From positions 1 through 64,000 of the forward strand of contig DYNE01000009.1 of the NCBI GenBank assembly GCA_020721225.1: 64,000 nucleotides of DNA. The letters are read 5' to 3'. Origin of the DNA: Pelodictyon luteolum. GTDB lineage: Bacteria > Bacteroidota > Chlorobiia > Chlorobiales > Chlorobiaceae. Below the pieces are notes generated by a model. It saw only the letters and a program-made list of their open reading frames with translations. It ran no database searches and was not told the origin of the DNA. Both the position numbers and the translations under genes were made by a program. Positions 1 through 15,306 of this stretch are shown piece by piece. Each line of letters starts with the position of its first letter. Position 1 is the stretch's first letter.

Positions 1-700
1 TATTATATAATAACTAAAAGGGTTTTATGTTTTCAACAGTTGGACACTAGTGAGAGATTATTTAACCGAGCAAAAAAACACACGCATACTCGTTCGCATC
101 ACTTAACCGGAAAACCCTGTGAAGAAACAAATCCGGGCTATCTTCCCACATGGGCTTTTTCCGATATTTCCATTGCCCCGACGAGTCCGATCCCTTACAC
201 GCCTGCAGCAATTCATCGAAATCCCCTTGCATTATTGCATACGAATCGGATCCGGCATGCCCGTACAACCGGAGCCTGAACTGTAGCAAAGCGTTCGGAA
301 TGTTCATGATCTTCGACAGGAAGCAGACACATTGCCGAGTGATTCCGTCTGCTGCAACAAGGAGATCCTGCACTCAATCTCTTTCATTTACGACGGCATC
401 ATCTTCACAGACAAAACCAGCGGTTACCATATCAGGAATGGTTAATTAGCGTCCAAACGGCCAAATCCTGAAACTGATATATTACAAATATTATTACAAG
501 CAAAATATAAGAAACTGTTAAACGTCTCTCTACCTCATTCACGAAGAACCCACTGCAAACACACTGAAACATTGGATTCTTCAAGAAAATAATGTATGTC
601 CGACAGCCACTGAATCAGCTAAAAAGCTGATATGACATCAATATGATTTGATCATTTTTATAATATTTATAATAAAAATAATATATTTTTTTAAATTTGA
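1..700. other. Gene-poor, AT-rich left flank
   Basis: No gene can be supported here. The part from about 480 to 700 is very AT-rich, with runs of T and A, and holds a small hairpin (CAGCT/AGCTG) near 617-630. On the - strand, codons from ATG 430 down to about 62 are open apart from one in-frame TGA at 374-376. The translated product resembles nothing I recognise, so it may be a decayed gene or chance. The base composition differs from the roughly 50% GC genes downstream, which fits a promoter-rich or degraded region. Confidence 0.4.
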
Positions 701-711
701 AAGCCTGTATG

Positions 712-752
712 CGAGGGGGCTCCGAGTGCATTGCGCGGTTTGCCCCCCCTAC
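712..752. repeat. GC-rich inverted repeat in AT-rich context
   Basis: A run beginning AGGGGGC near 713 is matched by GCCCCCCT near 743-750, giving a 7-8 bp stem with a loop of about 20 bases. It stands at the switch from very AT-rich DNA to the Nif11 leader region. There is no following T-tract, so it is not a typical intrinsic terminator. A leader RNA structure or a chance repeat are both possible. Confidence 0.3.
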
Positions 753-1027
753 TTGCTGTCCAAAAACAAGACGATGTGATTATGACCTTCAATAGGCTGC
801 GTGGCGGTGAACAGAACGCGACTTTCAAAATCCGATTACCTCTCGATACATCCGTAATTCCTGAACCTGCAGCTCAAATCACATCTGTGGACTACTTTTC
901 AAAGCCACCGCATGAAAAAAGAGATGCCGTCGGAGAGAGTTCACAAACGCATCTGAACAGCCCGAACGGCCGCTGCGGGTTTGCGACGGGAACTCAAGAT
1001 AAAATCAACCAACCGAGGAGTAACGAT
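753..1027 (+). other. Upstream region of the Nif11-domain gene
   Basis: This stretch is open in the frame of the downstream Nif11 gene back to about 731, but the residues it would add look non-coding and match no domain. The Nif11 domain begins exactly at ATG 1028, which has a good ribosome binding site. I therefore read this as 5' untranslated or intergenic DNA. I looked for a cobalamin riboswitch, since the next enzyme probably binds B12, and did not see the conserved B12-box. Confidence 0.35.
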
Positions 1028-1258
1028 ATGACAATAGCTCAATCGAAAGCATTGTACGAGCGACTGCAGGCGGATGAAGTCTTCCGAAACAGGGTTCTGG
1101 CTGCCGATGGAATGGAGAAATGCATTGAACTCATTGAATCTTACGGCTTCAACTGCTCGAATGACGAGGTACAGATGGCGCTGAACAAGTACACAACAAA
1201 TACGGCTTCCGACACCTGCGAGAACTTTACATTATGGGGCAACAGAATACCCCGATGA
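1028..1258 (+). CDS. Nif11-domain small protein (possible RiPP precursor-like peptide)
   Basis: This is a 76-residue peptide. Residues 1-53 fit the Nif11 domain: a start of the MTIAQSKALYERLQAD type, a central FRNRVLAAD stretch, an amphipathic helix, a GF turn at 40-41, and a second helix. Nif11 domains occur as leader sequences of ribosomally made, modified peptides and also as stand-alone proteins near nitrogen-fixation genes. The tail from about residue 54 is short and polar (NTASDTCENFTLWGNRIPR) and lacks the GG/AG cleavage motif common in Nif11 leaders. Cysteines lie at 32, 43 and 64. ATG 1028 was chosen over upstream in-frame starts because GAGG/GGAG lies 8-10 bases before it and the domain starts there. 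A B12-type radical SAM gene follows 170 bp downstream on the same strand. A link between them is inference only. Confidence 0.7.
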   Translation: MTIAQSKALYERLQADEVFRNRVLAADGMEKCIELIESYGFNCSNDEVQMALNKYTTNTASDTCENFTLWGNRIPR

Positions 1259-1296
1259 ACGGATGCTCTTACAGCCTGAAGCTTGACTGACGGATA

Positions 1297-1314
1297 CCGG
1301 GGGAGTTCTCCCGG
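1297..1314 (+). other. Hairpin between Nif11 gene and radical SAM gene
   Basis: CCGGG at 1297-1301 pairs with CCCGG at 1310-1314 around an 8-base loop. No U-tract follows, so it is more likely a transcript processing or stability element than a full terminator. If functional it would separate expression of the small upstream gene from that of the enzyme gene. Confidence 0.3.
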
Positions 1315-1427
1315 CGTTTCGGGCAAGGCAATCCCTATCAAGAAAATCAGGAAACGGTTCGACTCCCGAAGCAACATACCCTGCGACTTAATTCAGCAGT
1401 TAATACGACTACCAGAGAGCAGACAGA

Positions 1428-2828
1428 ATGGCCGAAAAAAATACCCGAAATACAGAAACGACTCTCCATACTGATCTTGGAGCATCCCTGATACAGCTTG
1501 CCGCGGAAAAGAAAAACAAAAAAAAATGGCTGCTCATCCAGCCAAAAAGCTCTACGAGCATGATGGTCGATTCAGGAAGCGTCAGCATGCCCCTGAATCT
1601 GATCATGGTCGCCACACTTGCCGGAGAACTCTTTGACGTAACGCTCATCGATGAACGTACCGGCGATCAGGTTCCTGAAGATTTCTCTGCCTATGATGTT
1701 GTAGCAATCACCGTCCGAACGTTAAATGCATCCAAGGCCTACCGCATAGGCGACAGGGCTCTCGCCCAGAAGAAAATCGTAGTGCTCGGCGGCGTACACC
1801 CGACCATGATGCAGGAAGAGGCCTCCGGGCACTGCACCAGCGTGGTTTACGGCGAGGTGGAATCCGTATGGAACGACCTGGCCCGCGATATCCTGCAGGA
1901 CACCATGAAACCCCTCTATCGCGCGGACGAGCTGCAACCGATGACCGCTATGCAGGGACCGGATTTCAGTTACGCACTGAATTCCGGAAATGCGGATAAA
2001 TACAGTTCGCGCATCCCTGTTTTAGCAACCAAGGGATGCCCCGTAGGATGCAATTTCTGCACCACGCCCACCATATACGGCAAAAGTTACCGGTACCGGG
2101 AAATCGATCTCGTGCTCGACGAAATGCAGTACCATCAGGAGCGACTTGGAAAAAAGAAAGCTACCTTTTCGTTCATGGACGACAACATCAGTTTCCGGCC
2201 CCAGTACTTTACCGAACTGCTTGAGGGCATGTCGAGAATCGACGCCCGCTGGAATGCGAATATATCCATGAATTTCCTGCATAAACCCGAGGTGGCGGAA
2301 ATCGCCGGACGGTCTGGATGCGAGTTGATGAGCATCGGTTTCGAATCGCTCAACCCTGATACCCTGAAAAGCATGAACAAGGGGGCCAACCGCCTCCAGA
2401 ACTATTCGACAGTTGTTGACAATCTCCACAGGAATGACATCGCAATCCAGGGATACTTCATGTTCGGCTTCGACGACGACAGCGAAAAAAGCTTTCAGGC
2501 AACCTATGACTTCATCATGCAGAACCGGATAGAGTTTCCGGTCTTCTCGCTTGTCACGCCGTTTCCGGGAACGCCATACTATGAAGAAATGAAACCAAGG
2601 ATAAGGCACTTCGACTGGGACAAGTACGACACCTATCACTTCATGTTCGAACCACGGAAAATGCAGGGAGAAAAGCTGCTCGATAACTTCGTAAAACTTC
2701 AGAAAGAGGTCTATAAAGGAATGTCCATCATGAAGCGGATGCAGGGAAAACCTCTCAACTGGGTCTGGTTGGCCAACTTAAAAATGCATGCTTTCACCAG
2801 AAAACTGAAACCCGGCATGTATCTGTGA
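1428..2828 (+). CDS. B12-binding-domain radical SAM protein (BchE/BchQ/BchR/BciD-like)
   Basis: This 466-residue protein has an N-terminal cobalamin-binding-like Rossmann domain at about 34-150 (WLLIQP start, GGVHPT at 121-126, YGEVE at 141-145) and a radical SAM core. The cluster-binding cysteines are C204, C208 and C211 (CPVGCNFC). The B12 domain lacks the DxHxxG motif, as is usual in BchE-like enzymes. In green sulfur bacteria this family includes the anaerobic cyclase BchE, the C-8 and C-12 methyltransferases BchQ and BchR, and BciD, which oxidises the C-7 methyl group to formyl in bacteriochlorophyll e. The neighbours bciA and a bchK-like synthase downstream make a pigment-modifying role most likely, but I cannot assign which reaction. 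A peptide-modifying role on the upstream Nif11 protein is an alternative. Confidence 0.8.
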   Translation: MAEKNTRNTETTLHTDLGASLIQLAAEKKNKKKWLLIQPKSSTSMMVDSGSVSMPLNLIMVATLAGELFDVTLIDERTGDQVPEDFSAYDVVAITVRTLNASKAYRIGDRALAQKKIVVLGGVHPTMMQEEASGHCTSVVYGEVESVWNDLARDILQDTMKPLYRADELQPMTAMQGPDFSYALNSGNADKYSSRIPVLATKGCPVGCNFCTTPTIYGKSYRYREIDLVLDEMQYHQERLGKKKATFSFMDDNISFRPQYFTELLEGMSRIDARWNANISMNFLHKPEVAEIAGRSGCELMSIGFESLNPDTLKSMNKGANRLQNYSTVVDNLHRNDIAIQGYFMFGFDDDSEKSFQATYDFIMQNRIEFPVFSLVTPFPGTPYYEEMKPRIRHFDWDKYDTYHFMFEPRKMQGEKLLDNFVKLQKEVYKGMSIMKRMQGKPLNWVWLANLKMHAFTRKLKPGMYL

Positions 2829-2907
2829 ACATCGCGATGCGCGGTACCATCCCTTCCGGAACGTACAGCAGGATCTTTTCGAAAACAGTAATCATACTCT
2901 CACCACA

Positions 2908-3033
2908 ATGCATACAGAATCGTTCAATTACACGACCATTTTCGCTCCGGTCGGTTTTTTTTTCGGAGGAATTCTTCTTGTCCTGCTGTTAAACAAATTT
3001 ATCGGGAAACATTCCGGTGAGCAGAAATCCTGA
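2908..3033 (+). CDS. 41-residue single-span membrane microprotein
   Basis: An ATG-initiated reading frame of 41 codons encodes a short polar N-terminus (MHTESFNYTT), one strongly hydrophobic helix at about 11-29 (APVGFFFGGILLVLLL), and a basic, polar C-terminus (NKFIGKHSGEQKS). This is the layout of a small one-pass membrane subunit with the positive end in the cytoplasm. It sits between the radical SAM gene and bciA on the same strand. No strong ribosome binding site is visible. I recognise no family. It could be a small partner of a pigment enzyme, or a chance hydrophobic frame. Conservation in related genomes would decide. Confidence 0.45.
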   Translation: MHTESFNYTTIFAPVGFFFGGILLVLLLNKFIGKHSGEQKS

Positions 3034-3111
3034 TGCATACCCAGTAACTACAGGCGCATACGCATTCATGAAAGTACATAACCATTCTTTCCAATAAAAT
3101 TCAAGGTACCA

Positions 3112-4149
3112 TTGGCTTCTTTCTCATGTTTTTTCGGCAGTAGTACAGCTCAACGGACAAAGAGAATATTCGTGGCCGGTGCGACAGGATATATCGGAAA
3201 ATTCGTTACCCGCGAGATTGTTTCACGAAAACACGATGTGGTAAGCTTCGCCAGGGAGCGATCGGGAATAGACGGTGCCACTTCAGCCGCTCAAACACGC
3301 AGGCAGCTGGAAGGATCCGAGGTGCGCTTCGGCGACATCTGCAATATCGATTCCCTGATCGGATCGGGCATCCGCGGGGAACGTTTCGATGCCGTGATTT
3401 CGTGCCTGACATCACGGACCGGAGGGGTAAAGGACTCCTGGATGATCGACTACCAGGCAAACCGCAACGTTCTCGATGCAGCAAAAGCTGCAGGAGCGAA
3501 ACAGTTCGTTCTTCTGTCGGCGATCTGCGTTCAGAAACCTATGCTTGAGTTCCAGAGGGCCAAGCTGAAATTCGAAAAGGAACTCATGGATTCGGGTATG
3601 ACCTACTCCATCGTACGGCCTACGGCGTTTTTCAAATCTCTCGCCGGACAGGTGGATGCCCTGAAAAATGGAAAGCCTTATGTGATGTTCGGAAATGGAG
3701 AACTGACCTCGTGCAAACCGATCAGCGAAGCCGACCTTGCGCGCTTCATGGCCGACTGCCTTGAAGACCCGACAAAAAGAAACGAAATCCTTCCCGTAGG
3801 CGGACCCGGCGAACCTGTCTCTGCGAAAGCACAGGGGGAAATGCTTTTTGAACTGCTTGGAAAGAAACCGAAGTTCAGAAAAATTCCGATCAGTATTTTC
3901 GACCTGACCATTCCGGTGCTGAGCGGACTTTCGAAGCTGTTTCCGATGCTGGAAGACAAAGCGGAATTCGCCAGAATAGGAAAGTATTATGCTTCGGAGT
4001 CAATGCTGTCGCTCGATCCGGAAACGGAAACATACGATAGTGCGGCGACCCCTTCCTTCGGGAACGACTCGCTCAGGGAGTTTTATGCGCGGATACTTAA
4101 AGAAGGATGTGCAGGTCAGGAACTGGGTGCCCATTCGATATTTCATTAA
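3112..4149 (+). CDS. bciA: Divinyl (proto)chlorophyllide a 8-vinyl reductase, BciA type
   Basis: This 345-residue NAD(P)-binding Rossmann protein belongs to the atypical SDR/NmrA-like group. The nucleotide motif GATGYIGKFV sits at about residues 23-32. The body matches BciA in features such as SCLTSRTGGVKDSW, DYQANRNVLDAAK and SIVRPTAFFKSLAGQ. BciA uses NADPH to reduce the C-8 vinyl group of divinyl chlorophyllides, a step shared by chlorophyll a and the bacteriochlorophylls. The frame is closed by TAA at 3079, so translation must start at TTG 3112, which has AAGG five bases upstream, or at an internal codon. It lies 28 bp before a bchK-like gene and is probably co-transcribed with it. The same genome segment also carries bchJ, historically named vinyl reductase. 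Confidence 0.85.
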   Translation: MASFSCFFGSSTAQRTKRIFVAGATGYIGKFVTREIVSRKHDVVSFARERSGIDGATSAAQTRRQLEGSEVRFGDICNIDSLIGSGIRGERFDAVISCLTSRTGGVKDSWMIDYQANRNVLDAAKAAGAKQFVLLSAICVQKPMLEFQRAKLKFEKELMDSGMTYSIVRPTAFFKSLAGQVDALKNGKPYVMFGNGELTSCKPISEADLARFMADCLEDPTKRNEILPVGGPGEPVSAKAQGEMLFELLGKKPKFRKIPISIFDLTIPVLSGLSKLFPMLEDKAEFARIGKYYASESMLSLDPETETYDSAATPSFGNDSLREFYARILKEGCAGQELGAHSIFH

Positions 4150-4177
4150 CAGAACTCAGGATCTCGCGAGAGCAGTC

Positions 4178-5197
4178 ATGTCAATAACAGAAAAAGCGAC
4201 AACGGTCAGACCGATCGGGTTTATAGGCAAAATCAAAGCCCATATCGAAATTCTCGATCCCGTCACCTGGATCAGCGTGTTTCCCTGCCTGACCGGTGGA
4301 GCGATGGCGTCGGGAGCCATGCAGGGAAATGTGCACGACTACCTGCTCCTTTTTGCGCTGTTTCTGATCTACGGCCCTCTCGGCACGGGGTTCAGCCAGT
4401 CGGTAAACGATTATTTCGATCTCGAACTCGATCGTATCAGCGAGCCCACCCGACCGATCCCTTCAGGACGGTTGACCAAACAGGAGGCGCTCTGGAACTG
4501 GAGCATCGTTCTTGCCATCGCAGTGCTTCTCGGCTCATGGCTCAGCCTGCACATCGGCGGTCAGCGAGGCTGGATCATCGCACTTTCCCTCTTCACCGGC
4601 CTTTCGCTCGGCTATATTTATTCGGCCCCCCCGCTCAAGCTGAAAAAAAATATTCTTCTCTCGGCACCTGCGGTCGGCATTTCCTATGGAGTCATTACCT
4701 GGATCTCGGCCAACGCCTTCTTCAGCGAAATAAGACCCGAGGCGTTATGGATGGCCGGACTCAACTTCTTTATGGCAACAGCACTCATAATCATGAATGA
4801 TTTCAAGTCCCAGGAAGGAGATGCGAAAGGGGGAATGAAGTCGCTGGCCGTGATGATCGGCCCGAAAAACACGTTCCTCGTCGCCTTCACCATCGTCGAT
4901 CTGGTATTTGCCGTATTCGCATGGCTCGCATGGAGCTGGGGTTTTCATTTGCTGATGTACTTCCTGCTGATAACTCTGCTTGTCGATATTGTCATCCAGG
5001 TGAAGCTCTACCGGGATCCGCACAAAGGCCTTTACTTCATGCAGATCGCCGTTGATGACGGATTCGGGCACACGATCGGCAAAAGCGAAATACACGAGCA
5101 CAACGCCTTCCTTCGCTTTCAGGTGGTCAACAACATCCTGTTCCTCGTCAACCAGTTCATCGCCGCCGGCCTGATCGGCATGAAATACATGCAATAG
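4178..5197 (+). CDS. bchK: Bacteriochlorophyll c synthase-like prenyltransferase, second copy
   Basis: This 339-residue UbiA-family integral membrane protein attaches an isoprenoid alcohol diphosphate to a chlorophyllide. The prenyl-diphosphate-binding motif NDYFDLELDRISEPTRPIPSG lies at about residues 76-96, and the second conserved Asp region is NDFKSQEGD at about 215. About nine hydrophobic helices are apparent. It is very similar over its whole length to the BchK at 14305-15306, including the FPCL-GG-MASGAMQ stretch, so it is a recent paralogue. The other copy has the syntenic bchK context (tail-alcohol kinase, LpxH-like, hisG, cruC), so this one is the extra copy, linked to bciA and the radical SAM gene. 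It may esterify a different macrocycle or alcohol. A BchG function is a less likely alternative. ATG 4178 was chosen because homology starts there. Confidence 0.85.
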   Translation: MSITEKATTVRPIGFIGKIKAHIEILDPVTWISVFPCLTGGAMASGAMQGNVHDYLLLFALFLIYGPLGTGFSQSVNDYFDLELDRISEPTRPIPSGRLTKQEALWNWSIVLAIAVLLGSWLSLHIGGQRGWIIALSLFTGLSLGYIYSAPPLKLKKNILLSAPAVGISYGVITWISANAFFSEIRPEALWMAGLNFFMATALIIMNDFKSQEGDAKGGMKSLAVMIGPKNTFLVAFTIVDLVFAVFAWLAWSWGFHLLMYFLLITLLVDIVIQVKLYRDPHKGLYFMQIAVDDGFGHTIGKSEIHEHNAFLRFQVVNNILFLVNQFIAAGLIGMKYMQ

Positions 5198-5441
5198 TCG
5201 CTCCAGAGCAAGCCATCAAAGAAACGATACTGTGCCGTTGAGAATTCCTCCGGGACATCCTGAATCGAAGCTTCGGTTTCCTGTTACAGATTTTTATGAA
5301 AAAATCGTAGCTTTTTCTTACAAAATCTTACTAATATCAAAACCTTTCCATGAAAGGCATCCGGTTTTCACGGAAAGGCATCTGGATCGGCTGTAACAAC
5401 GCGGGCTGCATCCTGACCCGCAAACGATATTCTTCAAGGCG

Positions 5442-8400
5442 ATGCATAAGAAACAAATTCCATCCGGCAACAATGAGAGTGAGATCGGCGCATTGCTGGA
5501 ATCCCTTCCCGATGCCGTTTTTATCATCGATGCCGAAGGAATGGTACGCAACGCAAACTCCTTGTTTGCCTCCCGGTTCGACAGAAGCCCGCAGGAGTGC
5601 ATCGGCGAAAACATCTCTTATCTGCTCTCGGATGTGCTCGGCTTTCCGGAACTTGCACTCCATATCACACAAAAAGCAACCGAGGTTTTTCATACCGGAG
5701 AGCGTCTGACGATCGATAATGAACGGGACTCTTTCAGAGTAGTCATCAATCCCGTCAGGTCAAAAGAAAAAATCGTCACGACATTATTGGTCAGCATCGA
5801 AAATGTTTCGAGGCAAAAACATGTCGAAGAGGAGCTTCAAAAAGAACGGGCACTGAAAACCGCCCTGCTTGAAGCCATGCCGGGATGCGCAATCATTCTG
5901 AACGCCGAAGGAAAACTGATCGTGTGGAACCAGTACGCCCACGACATTATCTTCGGCAAAACCGGCGACATCACCGGGAACGTCGATCCGATAGAAACCA
6001 TCTGCGCCGATCACATTTTTCCCGTTAAAAAAAAGTTCCTGAACATTCTGAATTCCGGCTCCGAGGACAGCAGCGAAGTGAAAATCTGCCCGCCGGGAAG
6101 CCCTGAACCCTTGTGGCTGGCTACCAGAGGAAGAAGGGTCATCATCGATGGCGAACCCTGTGTCGTTGCTGTCGGTGTTGATATCAGCAGGCAAAAACAG
6201 CTTGAAGAGGATCTTGTCGAGAGCAAGATGCGCTTCAACTATGCCCTCGATGCCGCGCACTCGGGAATATGGGAATGGGACATCGAAACAGACCGCCTGA
6301 GCTGGTCGGAACATGTATGGGGATTGTACGGTTTGCAGGTAAGCAGTGCGCCGTTGAACCATCAGCTCTGTGTCGATACCATCCATCCCGATGACCGGGA
6401 GACGGCATCATGGATCATAAAGGAGGCTGTCAGAAACCAGAACCCGGCGGCCGTCGAATACCGGGTCTGCCATCCCGACGGGTCCATACACTGGCTTACT
6501 TCACGCGGCATGCCCCTGCACAACGATGAGGGCAAGGTAATCCGTTATATCGGCACCATCATCGACATAACGGAGCGCAAGCAGATAGAGCTCGAACTCC
6601 TTGAAAGCAAAAGCCGGCTCAACCAGGCACTCGAAGCCGCGCAAGCAGGCGTCTGGGAATGGGATCTGCAAACCAACGAGAATATCTGGTCTGAGGAGAT
6701 CTGGCCGCTCTACGGACTGCATAAAGACGATAGAAAACCCTCTTTTCAGCTTTGTACCGACACCATCCTTCCTGAAGATCGTGAGATGGCCACCAACGGT
6801 GTCACCGACGCCGCCGAGCACTGCAAGGAAATCAATATCCAATACCGGGTCATGCACTCCGACGGCTCGACACACTGGTTGATGTCGCGCGGCAAACCGA
6901 TATGTGACTTGAACGGCAAAATTACCCGTTACATCGGGACGACTATCGATGTCACCGAAAGCAAACTGGTTGAAATTGAGCTCAGCCAGAGCAAGACACG
7001 TCTCAACCAGGCTCTCGAGGCTACGAATGCCGGTATATGGGAATGGAACGTCAAGTCCGATCAGGTGTTCTGGTCAGACCGGGTCTGGAGCCTTTACGGG
7101 ATGGAGCCAAACAGCATGAAATCCTCCCACAAGCTCTGCGAAACCAACGTCCACCCTGAAGACAGGGATTTTACATTCGAGACTGTCATGCAGGCGGCTC
7201 TCAATGAATCGGAAATCAATGTTGAATACCGTGTGAGCCACATAGATGGTTCGATTCACTGGCTCATGTGCAGGGGGATGCCCCTGCGTGAGAAGGAAGG
7301 AGAGGTATCCTGCTATATCGGTACCGTGATCGACATCACGGTACGAAAAAACACGGACCTCGCCCTTGCCGAGAGTGAATCGAAATTTCGGAGCATTTTC
7401 GACCATGCCCCTGCAGCCATTGGCATCTGGGACCTTCAGGATGGCCGTCTGATCAACGTCAATACCTCCTGGCTGCATCTTTTCGGATTCACCCGCCAGG
7501 AAGCCATTGAACGCCCTATCACGGACCACTCCCTCTATGTGGAGCTGGATGAGTGGAAACAGATCGTCTCGGTACTTAAAAACCATGGTCGGCTTTTTAA
7601 CCATCCCGTAAAACTGCGGAAAAAAAACGGAGAACAGCTCAACGTCCTTTATTCCGCGGAATTCATAAATCTGAAAGACCGTTCGATCCTGCTCGTCATG
7701 ATGACGGACATCACACTGCAGGAACTGCAGCAGAAAAGCATCAACCAGCTTGAAGAGGCAGTCACCGAACGTACCGAACAGTTGCAGCTCGAAATTGAAC
7801 GCCTCGAACGGTTCATAAGCATGGTTTCTCACGAATACCGCACACCACTGGCAATTATACGGGGAAATCTCGACCTTATCGAAGTGAAGAACCAGAGCGG
7901 CAACAGGCTCGTCAAAACAGAAATAAACAAAATCCACAGAGCCATCGACCGCCTTGTCGAGGTCATGGAGGTTTCCATGCGCGAGAGTCGCATGATCGAA
8001 ACCCAGGGAATATCGGAAAAAAACCATGTCGAGATTGCCCCGCTTATCTACTCGCAGATAACTTCGTTCAAAAACATGTGGCCGGATGTGGACATCCGTT
8101 TCTCCGAACGCCTTGACGAGAGCAGAATAATCGGCGAGCCATCGCAGCTCAAGCTGGCGATATACAACCTTGTCGATAATGCGCGGAAATATTCTACCCC
8201 TGGCACCCCCATCGCCGTCGATTGCCGGAAAAAAGCTGACGAAGTCATCATCACAATACGCAATCGGGGGAGATCGATCTCCAAGGAGGAATGCGAAACA
8301 CTTTTCGACAAGTATCAGCGCGGCAGAAACTCCATGAACACCAGCGGAGCCGGACTCGGATTATGGCTGGTGAAAAAAATTATCGAACAGCATAACGGAA

Positions 8401-8534
8401 ACGTAACGCTCAGAGGATTCCCCTCCGGTGTCGAGGCAACCGTTCGTCTCCCTCTTGCCGGTGATACCGGCCTTAACACGAACGATAGCAACACGCAGGA
8501 AACTCTTGACCATCATCTGGACATCGCCGGGTAA
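5442..8534 (+). CDS. Multi-PAS sensor histidine kinase
   Basis: This 1030-residue sensor kinase has six PAS/PAC units followed by a kinase core. PAS units start at about residues 8, 140, 263, 391, 519 and 647. The third to fifth share the motif GIWEWD/N and EYRV-H-DGSIHWL-SRG and repeat with a period of 128 residues. A coiled segment at about 765-790 leads to the H-box with phospho-acceptor His797 (SHEYRTPL). The N-box is LYNLVDNARKYS and the G2 box is GAGLGLWLVKK. There is no transmembrane segment or signal peptide, so it should act in the cytoplasm, perhaps sensing redox state, oxygen or a ligand. The cognate regulator follows 48 bp downstream. Confidence 0.93.
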   Translation: MHKKQIPSGNNESEIGALLESLPDAVFIIDAEGMVRNANSLFASRFDRSPQECIGENISYLLSDVLGFPELALHITQKATEVFHTGERLTIDNERDSFRVVINPVRSKEKIVTTLLVSIENVSRQKHVEEELQKERALKTALLEAMPGCAIILNAEGKLIVWNQYAHDIIFGKTGDITGNVDPIETICADHIFPVKKKFLNILNSGSEDSSEVKICPPGSPEPLWLATRGRRVIIDGEPCVVAVGVDISRQKQLEEDLVESKMRFNYALDAAHSGIWEWDIETDRLSWSEHVWGLYGLQVSSAPLNHQLCVDTIHPDDRETASWIIKEAVRNQNPAAVEYRVCHPDGSIHWLTSRGMPLHNDEGKVIRYIGTIIDITERKQIELELLESKSRLNQALEAAQAGVWEWDLQTNENIWSEEIWPLYGLHKDDRKPSFQLCTDTILPEDREMATNGVTDAAEHCKEINIQYRVMHSDGSTHWLMSRGKPICDLNGKITRYIGTTIDVTESKLVEIELSQSKTRLNQALEATNAGIWEWNVKSDQVFWSDRVWSLYGMEPNSMKSSHKLCETNVHPEDRDFTFETVMQAALNESEINVEYRVSHIDGSIHWLMCRGMPLREKEGEVSCYIGTVIDITVRKNTDLALAESESKFRSIFDHAPAAIGIWDLQDGRLINVNTSWLHLFGFTRQEAIERPITDHSLYVELDEWKQIVSVLKNHGRLFNHPVKLRKKNGEQLNVLYSAEFINLKDRSILLVMMTDITLQELQQKSINQLEEAVTERTEQLQLEIERLERFISMVSHEYRTPLAIIRGNLDLIEVKNQSGNRLVKTEINKIHRAIDRLVEVMEVSMRESRMIETQGISEKNHVEIAPLIYSQITSFKNMWPDVDIRFSERLDESRIIGEPSQLKLAIYNLVDNARKYSTPGTPIAVDCRKKADEVIITIRNRGRSISKEECETLFDKYQRGRNSMNTSGAGLGLWLVKKIIEQHNGNVTLRGFPSGVEATVRLPLAGDTGLNTNDSNTQETLDHHLDIAG

Positions 8535-8582
8535 AACGTATATTGAGGCCTGTTTACAACCATAACAATTCATGCCGTGGCA

Positions 8583-9308
8583 ATGTCGGAGAAGCAAATC
8601 ATCATTGTTGAAGACGACCGGGATTTCCGTGAGAGTATTATGGAGTATCTGGTACTTGCGGGGTTTGATGTCACGGGAGTCACTTCAGCCCTGGAATTCT
8701 ATCAGAAAATCGCTCAGGATCGTTTTCTCCTGGTGATTCTCGATATAGCACTGCCGGACCAGGATGGCCTTGTGCTTGCTGAATACGTCCGTAAAAACAC
8801 TGAGATGCGCATTATCATGCTGACTGCGCAATCATCCCAGAAAAGCAAAATCGTCGCTTATGAGTCCGGAGCGGATCTCTACCTGACGAAACCGGTTGAT
8901 TTCCCTGAATTGCTCGCATCTATCACCAGTATTCTGGGGCGCCTCAGCAACTCGCACTCCGGCGAACAGGGTGAGGAAAGGACAGAATACGAATCTAATC
9001 AGGAAATTAAGCCCTGGGAGCTGTCAAGAAAGGAGTGGGCTCTCTTTACGCCGGATGGGGATAAAATAATTCTGACGGCAAAAGAATTCGATTTCATTGA
9101 AAAGCTGGCCTCCTGCCCTCTGAGAGTGGTTGATCGCGAAGAACTTCTGAAAGCTCTCGATTACGAAAATACCTCATCAGGTAACCGCTCGCTTGACGCG
9201 CTTGTACATCGCATGCGAAGAAAAAAAGAAATCAGCGAACTCTACATCCCCATAAAAACCTCACACGGCTCAGGATACAGTTTTTCCGCACCGATCATCA
9301 TGGCATAA
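8583..9308 (+). CDS. OmpR/PhoB-type response regulator
   Basis: This protein of about 241 residues has an N-terminal receiver domain (IIIVEDDRDF acidic pair; phospho-acceptor Asp in VILDIALPDQDG; Lys in LTKPVDFPE) and a C-terminal winged-helix DNA-binding domain (LTAKEFDFIEKLAS through GSGYSF). It is the partner of the preceding kinase. ATG 8583 was chosen; GTG 8577, two codons earlier in frame, is possible, and neither has a strong ribosome binding site. Targets are not evident. The adjacent pigment module is one candidate by position only. Confidence 0.92.
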   Translation: MSEKQIIIVEDDRDFRESIMEYLVLAGFDVTGVTSALEFYQKIAQDRFLLVILDIALPDQDGLVLAEYVRKNTEMRIIMLTAQSSQKSKIVAYESGADLYLTKPVDFPELLASITSILGRLSNSHSGEQGEERTEYESNQEIKPWELSRKEWALFTPDGDKIILTAKEFDFIEKLASCPLRVVDREELLKALDYENTSSGNRSLDALVHRMRRKKEISELYIPIKTSHGSGYSFSAPIIMA

Positions 9309-9358
9309 GCATAAATCTCCGGCTCTCTTTTCGGCGATATTTTCACCTGATCCGAAAC

Positions 9359-9414
9359 GAAAAAATGCCTGAGGGCGCTATATCTTCAGAGATGTAGCAC
9401 CGTCAGGCATTTTC
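9359..9414. terminator. Bidirectional intrinsic terminator
   Basis: AAAAATGCCTGA at 9361-9372 pairs with TCAGGCATTTT at 9403-9413. An inner stem GCTATATCT/AGATGTAGC extends it. It has A-tracts and T-tracts on both sides and lies between the convergent response regulator (+) and WD40 gene (-), so it should stop transcription from both directions. Confidence 0.85.
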
Positions 9415-9455
9415 AGATAAAACTTCTCAAACGCCAACCTGTCAGAAACACTTTC

Positions 9456-10406
9456 TTACTTAATTCCCCAGAGCTTGATCTTGAAGTCGTCGCTGCCGCT
9501 GGCGATAACCCGACCGTCAGGTGAAATATCGACCGACTGAACCTCATGGGTGTGACCCCGGTAGGTGTGCAGAAGCGCGCCGCTTTTGACATCCCAAAGC
9601 CTGACCGACTCGTCGTTGGCCGCGCTTGCGACTGCCGAACCGTCGGGGTTGAAGCAGACACTGCGGACACCATCCTCATGACCGATGAGCACTTTCAGGA
9701 TTTCACCTGTGGCCGCATCAAGAATTTTCACCTTCGCATCGCGTCCGCAAAAAGCGATGCGGCTGTCGTCGGGGCTGAAAACAACGGCGTGGGAGAGGGT
9801 ATCGCCGGTCTGATAGTTTGCGATATTTTTTCCGGATGCGACATCCCAGATTTTAATGACCGGCTCTTCGCCGCAACTTGCGATTTTTTTGCCGTCGTGA
9901 CTCCAGGCAAGGCATTCGATATACGATTTATGTCCGAGAAAACGTGCGGTTTCCCTTCCGGTCTCCACATCCCAGAGACGGATGGTGGTGTCCCTTGAAC
10001 AGCTTGCAAGCACCCTGCTGTCAGGGCTGAAAGCAACCATGCGCACGGCAGTATCGTGCCCTTTGCATACATGGACACAATTGCCGGTCCCAGGATCCCA
10101 GATTCTGACCGTACTGTCGGTACTGCCGCTGGCCAGCCATCTGCCGTCACGACTGTAATCGATACACTCCACCCATGTTTCGTGACCTTTCATGGTATGA
10201 AGCGGCTTGCCTGTCGCCACGTCCCAGAGCATCACCAGTTCATCGAACCCTCCGCTTACCAGTTTTGTGCCGTCGGCGTTGAATTTAACCCCGAGCACCC
10301 TGTCCTGGTGGCCTTCCATGGTCTTGATAAGATTGACATCCTCCTGCACTTTCGGACGTTTCAGCTCGACTTCTTTTTTACCGAATACTTTTGATAAGAA
10401 CCCCAT
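9456..10406 (-). CDS. WD40 repeat beta-propeller protein
   Basis: This 316-residue protein has a short basic N-terminus (MGFLSKVFGKKE) followed by seven WD40 units of about 42 residues that fill the rest, enough for one closed seven-bladed propeller. Each blade shows the GH...FSPDG...LASGS-D-TIRLWD signature. There is no kinase or protease domain attached and no signal peptide, so it is probably a cytoplasmic protein-interaction scaffold. It is a single gene, separated from cruC by about 130 bp. Function unknown beyond the fold. Confidence 0.93.
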   Translation of the reverse strand: MGFLSKVFGKKEVELKRPKVQEDVNLIKTMEGHQDRVLGVKFNADGTKLVSGGFDELVMLWDVATGKPLHTMKGHETWVECIDYSRDGRWLASGSTDSTVRIWDPGTGNCVHVCKGHDTAVRMVAFSPDSRVLASCSRDTTIRLWDVETGRETARFLGHKSYIECLAWSHDGKKIASCGEEPVIKIWDVASGKNIANYQTGDTLSHAVVFSPDDSRIAFCGRDAKVKILDAATGEILKVLIGHEDGVRSVCFNPDGSAVASAANDESVRLWDVKSGALLHTYRGHTHEVQSVDISPDGRVIASGSDDFKIKLWGIK

Positions 10407-14304: not shown

Positions 14305-15306
14305 TCACATGTATTTCGCGCCGATCATACCGGCCACAATCAGGTTGTTCAGAAGAAAGAGAATATTGTTGGCGACCTGATATCGGAGAAAGGCATTGTG
14401 CTCCTGCACCTCGCTTTTCCCTATCGCATTGCCGAATCCGTCCTCGACGGTGCCTTTCATGAAGGATATACTGCTTTTCGGATCGCGCAGCAACTGTATC
14501 TGAATGACGATGTTCAACGCAAGACCTATCAGCACCAGCACGATCGCTACCGTGAACCCCCAGCTCCAGGCGAGCCAGGCAAGCACGGCAAACACAAGGT
14601 CAATGATGATAAACGAAACCAGAAACGTATTTCTGGACCCGATCATGACCGCCAGAGATTTAAGCCCGCCCTCCTTGTCTCCTTCGACAGACTTGAAATC
14701 GTTCATGATGATGAGCGCTATGGCCATGAAGAAGTTCAGGCCTGCAAGCCAGATCACTTCGGGACGTATTTCGCTGAACAGGGCATTAGCCGATAAAAAC
14801 GTAACGAAACTGTACGAAAACCCTACCGCCGGAGCGGAAGTAACGATATTTTTCTTGAGCTTGAGAGGAGGAGCGGAGTATATGTAGGCAATAACAAGCG
14901 CAGTCAGAATCGAAACGATAATAACCGTACCCCGAACGCCGCCGATATGCAGACCGAGAAAAACGCCCAGACCGATGGCAAGCAGCAGAACGACGACACT
15001 GTTCCAGAGCGCTTCCTGTATGCTCAGGCGACCTGAGGGAATAGGGCGTGTAGGCTCGTTGACGCGATCGAGTTCGAGATCGAAATAATCGTTGACAGAT
15101 TGGCTGAAACCGGTTCCAAGCGGGCCGTAAAGCAGAAAGATCGATGCAAGCAGAAGATAATCGTGAAGGGTTGGCTGCATGGCCCCCGATGCCATAACAC
15201 CGCCGGCGAGACAGGGAAAAACGCTGATCCAGGTTACCGGATCAAGCAGTTCGAGATGGGCCCTGAGTTTATCGATAAATCCAGGTCGTCGTACGGCAAC
15301 TGACAT
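14305..15306 (-). CDS. bchK: Bacteriochlorophyll c synthase
   Basis: This 333-residue UbiA-family membrane prenyltransferase has the motif NDYFDLELDRVNEPTRPIPSG at about 71-91 and NDFKSVEGD at about 210. It esterifies bacteriochlorophyllide c/d/e with farnesyl diphosphate to give the chlorosome pigments. The gene order bchK, tail-alcohol kinase, LpxH-like, hisG, cruC supports this copy as the primary BchK. A second, highly similar copy lies at 4178-5197. About 160 bp without a clear gene separate it from the kinase, so co-transcription is plausible but not proven. Confidence 0.9.
   Translation of the reverse strand: MSVAVRRPGFIDKLRAHLELLDPVTWISVFPCLAGGVMASGAMQPTLHDYLLLASIFLLYGPLGTGFSQSVNDYFDLELDRVNEPTRPIPSGRLSIQEALWNSVVVLLLAIGLGVFLGLHIGGVRGTVIIVSILTALVIAYIYSAPPLKLKKNIVTSAPAVGFSYSFVTFLSANALFSEIRPEVIWLAGLNFFMAIALIIMNDFKSVEGDKEGGLKSLAVMIGSRNTFLVSFIIIDLVFAVLAWLAWSWGFTVAIVLVLIGLALNIVIQIQLLRDPKSSISFMKGTVEDGFGNAIGKSEVQEHNAFLRYQVANNILFLLNNLIVAGMIGAKYM

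Follow-up and report, generated by a model that had tools for sequence, protein, structure and literature searches.

A conserved one-helix microprotein of Chlorobiaceae encoded beside bacteriochlorophyll c and chlorosome genes

The sequence analyzed here is a stretch of 64,000 nucleotides from Pelodictyon luteolum (contig DYNE01000009.1), referred to as the window, in which a module of pigment genes lies on the forward strand. The names BchR, BchQ, BciA, BchK, and CsmB were assigned by position in genome G020, which we take to be C. tepidum. The module is headed by a frame whose C-terminal part contains a Nif11 domain (731–1258; start codon uncertain), followed by the remnant of a CsmA-family chlorosome gene (1280–1366), of which approximately the last 29 residues are recognizable (tblastn E 4e-9) and whose intact homolog belongs to PF02043. 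At the position of the remnant, the CsmA-family gene is intact in relatives such as L054, L065, L067, and L038. Downstream is a B12-binding radical-SAM enzyme assigned by Pfam (1428–2828), which is BchR-like, being 76% identical to the G020 enzyme at 1.242 Mb, and is presumably the C-12 methyltransferase of bacteriochlorophyll (BChl) c; a second copy, 75% identical, is found in the same genome at G000:C66:289-1623. A 41-residue microprotein with one predicted membrane helix, recognized by conservation, dN/dS, and AlphaFold2, occupies 2908–3033 and precedes a BciA-like 8-vinyl reductase of the NmrA/SDR type (3112–4149; Pfam), with no further close copy elsewhere in the genome, and the BChl c synthase BchK (4178–5197), which scores 604.9 bits with NF009058 (cut-off 494).

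A second BchK copy (14305–15306, reverse strand) lies within 10 kb of the first and is 69% identical to it; the two window BchKs are 72.7 and 71.6% identical to the G020 copy, and since they are about equally close to it, neither is labeled BchK2. BchK2 is credited with the esterification of BChlides e and f in one account (PMC9066304), whereas another describes duplicate BchK enzymes as having an unknown role (PMC7242693). Directly 3' of the pigment genes are a multi-PAS sensor histidine kinase (5442–8534, forward strand; Pfam) and a response regulator with a DNA-binding C-terminal domain (8577–9308, forward strand), an arrangement which suggests that the pigment module is under its own sensor. 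A WD40-repeat protein with strong matches to beta-propeller models built on eukaryotic proteins is encoded on the reverse strand at 9456–10406.

The microprotein gene runs from an ATG to a TGA codon on the forward strand and encodes the sequence MHTESFNYTTIFAPVGFFFGGILLVLLLNKFIGKHSGEQKS. Its start lies 79 nt past the stop of the radical-SAM gene (2828), and 78 nt separate its end from the TTG at 3112, the first start listed for the bciA-like frame, the true start of which may be downstream. Across its peak 19-residue hydrophobic stretch, TIFAPVGFFFGGILLVLLL, Kyte-Doolittle values average 2.42, which ranks first among the 227 ATG frames of 30–60 residues in the window, six of which reach 2.0 or more. 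AlphaFold2, supplied with 37 family sequences, predicted a single helix at residues 3–31, with a mean pLDDT of 74, 94, 92, 63, and 52 for successive ten-residue blocks. The hydrophobic stretch covers residues 10–28 of 41, which places this one helix no more than ∼30 residues from the C-terminus, as is characteristic of tail-anchored proteins. The initial annotation had described a 41-residue frame with a one-helix profile and a charged tail beside pigment genes; the frame and its profile are confirmed by the ATG–TGA span, hydrophobicity, AlphaFold2, and conservation, and the charged tail is true of the family more than of the window copy. The tail is positive in 91 of 93 intact homologs (mean charge +2.7) and the N-terminus is not positive in 87 of them, whereas the tail of the window copy is only weakly charged and the net charge of that whole protein is +1. 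A scan of 2700–3300 for promoter and terminator consensus sequences found none, an Rfam search of 600–5600 returned no match and no RNA element, and no clear Shine-Dalgarno sequence was seen by eye in the 22-nt stretches upstream of the frames inspected.

A profile built on 32 family members was used to search 394 genomes and matched 81 of the 86 Chlorobiaceae genomes at 99 places, the window included, with 18 genomes having two places; the frame is commoner than the initial annotation supposed. The source genome itself contains a second copy on another contig, which is 71% identical. At a threshold of E < 1e-15, 93 of the 99 copies are intact, with lengths of 36–54 residues and with 90 ATG and 3 GTG starts. 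The microprotein reading frame is open in all 93 intact homologs, while each of the other five frames is open in 0 to 32 of them, and Y8, T9, A13, G21, F31, I32, and G33 are identical in 93/93, P14 in 92, and N29 in 89. The dN/dS ratio (Nei-Gojobori) has a median of 0.28 and a maximum of 0.81, with no value above 1, across 486 pairs with pS of 0.1–0.6. The synonymous-biased substitutions anticipated for related genomes are seen both in G048, which retains the operon up to its contig end with a frame 90% identical (dN 0.07, dS 0.67 against the window), and in G040, which retains the whole operon with a frame 83% identical (dN 0.10, dS 0.60). Because 93 homologs are intact, the frame is kept open, and dN is far below dS, the frame is beyond chance, and 2908–3033 is, on the strength of these comparisons, a real and conserved coding gene under purifying selection.

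In a scan of named genomes, all 58 loci were in records titled Chlorobiaceae, Chlorobiales, Chlorobi, Chlorobium, or Chlorobaculum, and the 12 listed genomes of the same order gave no family match at E ≤ 0.01. Among the 394 genomes searched, six members of the phylum outside Chlorobiaceae gave weak matches (E 2.6e-4 to 8.3e-3). Two of these, in short open frames of G150 and G337, were rejected as homologs since each runs antisense to a large gene and is missing the remainder of the motif; the other four fall in frames that are longer or contain stops. The microprotein so far appears restricted to Chlorobiaceae, with no credible homolog seen in other genomes.

Five of the 86 Chlorobiaceae genomes (G046, G073, G082, G083, and G015) gave no family match. 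All five contain a csmB-like gene and four contain the AmgK-like neighbor; in G046, which is 99% complete, the order DUF1997-csmB-AmgK is kept with no such frame between. Six of the 99 copies are broken or degraded, namely the sole copies seen in G049 and G031 and the second copies in G037, G059, G078, and G085. The frameshift in G049, the genome in which the upstream methyltransferase is closest to that of the window (91% identical), occurs in a homopolymer run of the frame, and some of the breaks may be assembly errors. Conservation in the nearest relatives, on which the initial annotation had staked its claim, was borne out in part, as the frame is intact in G040 and G048, frameshifted in G049, and absent from G046. 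In G090, a genome of the same order which we take to be Chloroherpeton, BchR-like (60%) and BchK-like (53%) genes are present with no microprotein match, so the microprotein is not a requirement of BChl c synthesis in itself.

Neighboring genes were counted at a threshold of 50 bits within a range of −2.6 to +3.2 kb, using a reference set that contains no reaction-centre gene, and all counts are raw over the 99 places, ignoring shared descent and with no random-locus baseline. At least one of CsmB, the CsmA family, radical-SAM, BchK, BchU, and BciA is in range at 88/99 places, and none is in range at 11/99, in some cases owing to a short stretch. The individual counts are 56 for CsmB, 46 for radical-SAM enzymes, 12 for the CsmA family, 6 for BchK, and 4 each for BchU and BciA; other recurrent neighbors are a flavodoxin with a PCP_red domain (33), a Get3d-like ArsA ATPase with an HSP20 domain (23), Nif11-domain proteins (15), and PAS kinases (15). 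A csmB-like gene starts within 1.5 kb downstream on the same strand at 51/99 places and on the other strand at 2/99, with four stretches too short to judge fully. A same-strand radical-SAM gene of the BchQ or BchR methyltransferase type ends 3–151 nt upstream at 29/99 places, where 20 of the 29 genes are 67–70% identical to the G020 enzyme at 1.684 Mb (BchQ-type) and nine share 70–77% identity with the 1.242 Mb enzyme (BchR-type). Both types accompany the microprotein even though BchQ and BchR genes share only some 30% identity. Published accounts describe BchQ and BchR as methylating C-8(2) and C-12(1), respectively, of BChl c/d/e precursors (PMC7242693) and CT2054 as chlorosome envelope protein B (PMC12285230).

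The arrangement of these neighbors differs among genomes. For example, G020 contains a single microprotein copy 5' of csmB, and the order in G022, G028, and G038 is BchQ-type, microprotein, csmB-like, and CsmA-like. In L062, a locus from a C. limnaeum-like genome, bciD is followed by a BchQ-like gene, a gap of 3 nt, the microprotein, and a csmB-like gene. BciD was rejected as the enzyme directly upstream in L062, as the four bciD primers published for C. limnaeum match it exactly and bound ∼2.0 kb at 5514–7508, and the gene adjoining the microprotein is a separate BchQ-like gene at 8506–9939. In a weakly supported tree of the 41 residues, methyltransferase-linked microproteins are scattered over several parts, with the window copy grouping with csmB-linked copies and other BchR-linked copies placed elsewhere; these scattered positions weakly suggest that the pairing with a methyltransferase may have arisen more than once. 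A fusion of flavodoxin with PCP_red, the C-terminus of a protochlorophyllide reductase subunit (L037 172–804 family), adjoins the microprotein in many Chlorobium-type genomes and is possibly an undescribed pigment oxidoreductase. In L036 and L183, a gene for the Get3d-like ArsA ATPase with an HSP20 domain lies between two pigment methyltransferase genes and bchU.

Searches of Pfam, NCBIfam, and PDB sequences identified no convincing relative of the microprotein, and phmmer and profile searches of PDB chains with assigned residues gave nothing beyond weak matches to unrelated chains (E 0.44 or worse). The best library match, a membrane segment of human LAMP2 (Pfam E 0.0027 for one member, listed for 5/32 members; PDB E 0.44), was read as a generic hydrophobic match. 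A resemblance to PsaJ seen by eye was also set aside, as PF01701 matches neither copy in the genome and no PsaJ chain appeared in the PDB profile search. The chlorophyll-binding motif of HLIPs is of the ExxNxR type; the microprotein has no Glu at the motif position and, even with E values of up to 10 admitted, none of the 32 members matches an HLIP/CAB family in Pfam. Since the motif is absent, the microprotein is not an HLIP. Membership among the chlorosome envelope proteins was rejected in the absence of a PF02043 match in Pfam, and no likeness to CsmB was seen on inspection without pairwise scoring. PscE and PscF of C. tepidum are set apart by their published descriptions, in which PscE is rich in charged residues and PscF has four helices (PMC9529944). 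The consulted portions of open-licence papers contained no description of the gene.

The near-universal conservation of the microprotein and its antenna and pigment gene neighbors indicate that it probably helps to build the light-harvesting antenna. The initial annotation pointed out that small one-pass proteins often stabilize photosynthetic and pigment complexes; the neighbors here point to the chlorosome and the BChl c/d/e pathway, no sequence similarity to a solved photosystem subunit was found, and the proposal is narrowed to chlorosome building. Judged by gene position, we tentatively favor a microprotein that couples late BChl c/d/e synthesis to chlorosome growth, a reading to which we assign a probability of roughly 0.4. 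Since the tails are positive in 91/93 homologs and the N-termini not positive in 87/93, the positive-inside rule would place the lysine-rich C-terminus in the cytoplasm and the N-terminus toward the periplasm. The conserved helix positions (Y-T, A-P, G, L-N, and F-I-G) would pack on an integral membrane partner, most likely BchK, and this packing would hold BchQ/BchR methylation and BchK esterification at one membrane patch, the site at which growing chlorosomes would take up pigment together with CsmB and other envelope proteins. Extra microprotein copies would accompany duplicate BchQ or BchR genes because, as we propose, variant pigment sets need their own copy.

Consistent with a coupling role are the presence of the family in 81/86 genomes, its 93/99 intact copies and median dN/dS of 0.28, the csmB-like gene downstream at 51/99 places, the BchQ/BchR-type gene directly upstream at 29/99, the listed neighbors at 88/99, and the co-directional BchR-like, microprotein, BciA, and BchK genes of the window. 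In the cyanobacterial ChlG-HliD-Ycf39 complex, a known one-helix protein binds chlorophyll synthase; HliD is thought to stabilize the synthase, and Ycf39 is a member of the SDR family (PMC9066304). HliD/HliC with ChlG and Ycf39 combine a one-helix protein with a (bacterio)chlorophyll synthase and a protein of the SDR/NmrA type, and the genes for three such proteins are neighbors in the window. In contrast to HliD/HliC, the microprotein has neither the HLIP chlorophyll-binding motif nor a Pfam match, and BciA is a reductase whereas Ycf39 has no shown catalysis; by analogy, the microprotein may work like an HLIP without being a member. Against the coupling role, BchK is a neighbor at only 6/99 places and BciA at 4/99, G090 makes do without the microprotein, 11/99 places have no listed neighbor, five genomes have no frame, and six copies are broken.

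The same csmB linkage (51/99), together with the CsmA-family gene near 12/99 places and the BchQ-type, microprotein, csmB-like, CsmA-like order in G022, G028, and G038, could also reflect a chlorosome docking or assembly factor, with the helix in the cytoplasmic membrane and the basic tail recruiting CsmB-/CsmA-type proteins or the growing chlorosome with no contact to pigment enzymes. The best CsmB match in the microprotein-less G090 is only E 3.3e-4, which fits such a factor, but 29/99 copies are directly 3' of a pigment methyltransferase gene, the window retains the microprotein though its CsmA-family neighbor is a remnant, and csmB persists in the five frame-less genomes, and we consider this alternative somewhat unlikely, if still a serious one. 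The microprotein shares its gene neighborhood with CsmA/CsmE (PF02043) and CsmB/CsmF and differs from these envelope proteins in sequence, in being about half their size, and in having a hydrophobic membrane-spanning helix.

It is unlikely that the microprotein is a small subunit belonging to the reaction centre or to some other membrane complex. Such an identity would agree with the near-universal presence in Chlorobiaceae and with the size and single helix of PscU, PscV, and PscW of Chloracidobacterium, one-helix subunits of a type I reaction centre with 35, 36, and 45 residues whose function is given as unknown (PMC10968294); however, no PDB chain with assigned residues matches by phmmer or profile, C. 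tepidum PscE and PscF are by their description different proteins (PMC9529944), and the microprotein gene adjoins chlorosome and BChl c genes.

Delivery after translation as a tail-anchored-like client of the Get3d-like targeting ATPase, which is compatible with the other readings, is improbable. Genes combining ArsA_ATPase and ArsA_HSP20 are near 23/99 places, green bacteria are reported to have Get3d, to which tail-anchored proteins bind (PMC10248533), and the microprotein resembles Get3d-handled proteins in its single helix ≤30 residues from the C-terminus; it nearly lacks an N-terminal domain, however, the positive tails predict the C-terminus inside, opposite to a classical tail-anchored protein, and 76/99 places have no such gene nearby. 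A leader peptide or chance frame with no protein role, for which the missing promoter, terminator, and Shine-Dalgarno signals might speak, is barely credible given the dN/dS values, the invariant residues, the start and length kept in 93 copies, and the lack of an Rfam match.

Beyond the favored coupling of pigment synthesis to chlorosome growth, a bolder and rather doubtful extension would make the microprotein an organizer in the membrane for nascent chlorosomes. Without sequence kinship to cyanobacterial HLIPs, this platform of one helix would bring BchQ/BchR, BchK, and CsmB together at a single membrane patch, would maybe be inserted by the Get3d-like ATPase, and in duplicate form would give rise to an alternative chlorosome. 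If this were true, duplicate copies with a second BchQ, BchR, or BchK and a two-component sensor would allow a differently colored chlorosome in some species. C. tepidum has been described as genetically tractable (PMC3613366), and a near-universal Chlorobiaceae microprotein tied to csmB and pigment methyltransferases offers a candidate, small and open to deletion, for the hand-over of BChl c/d/e from membrane enzymes into the chlorosome.
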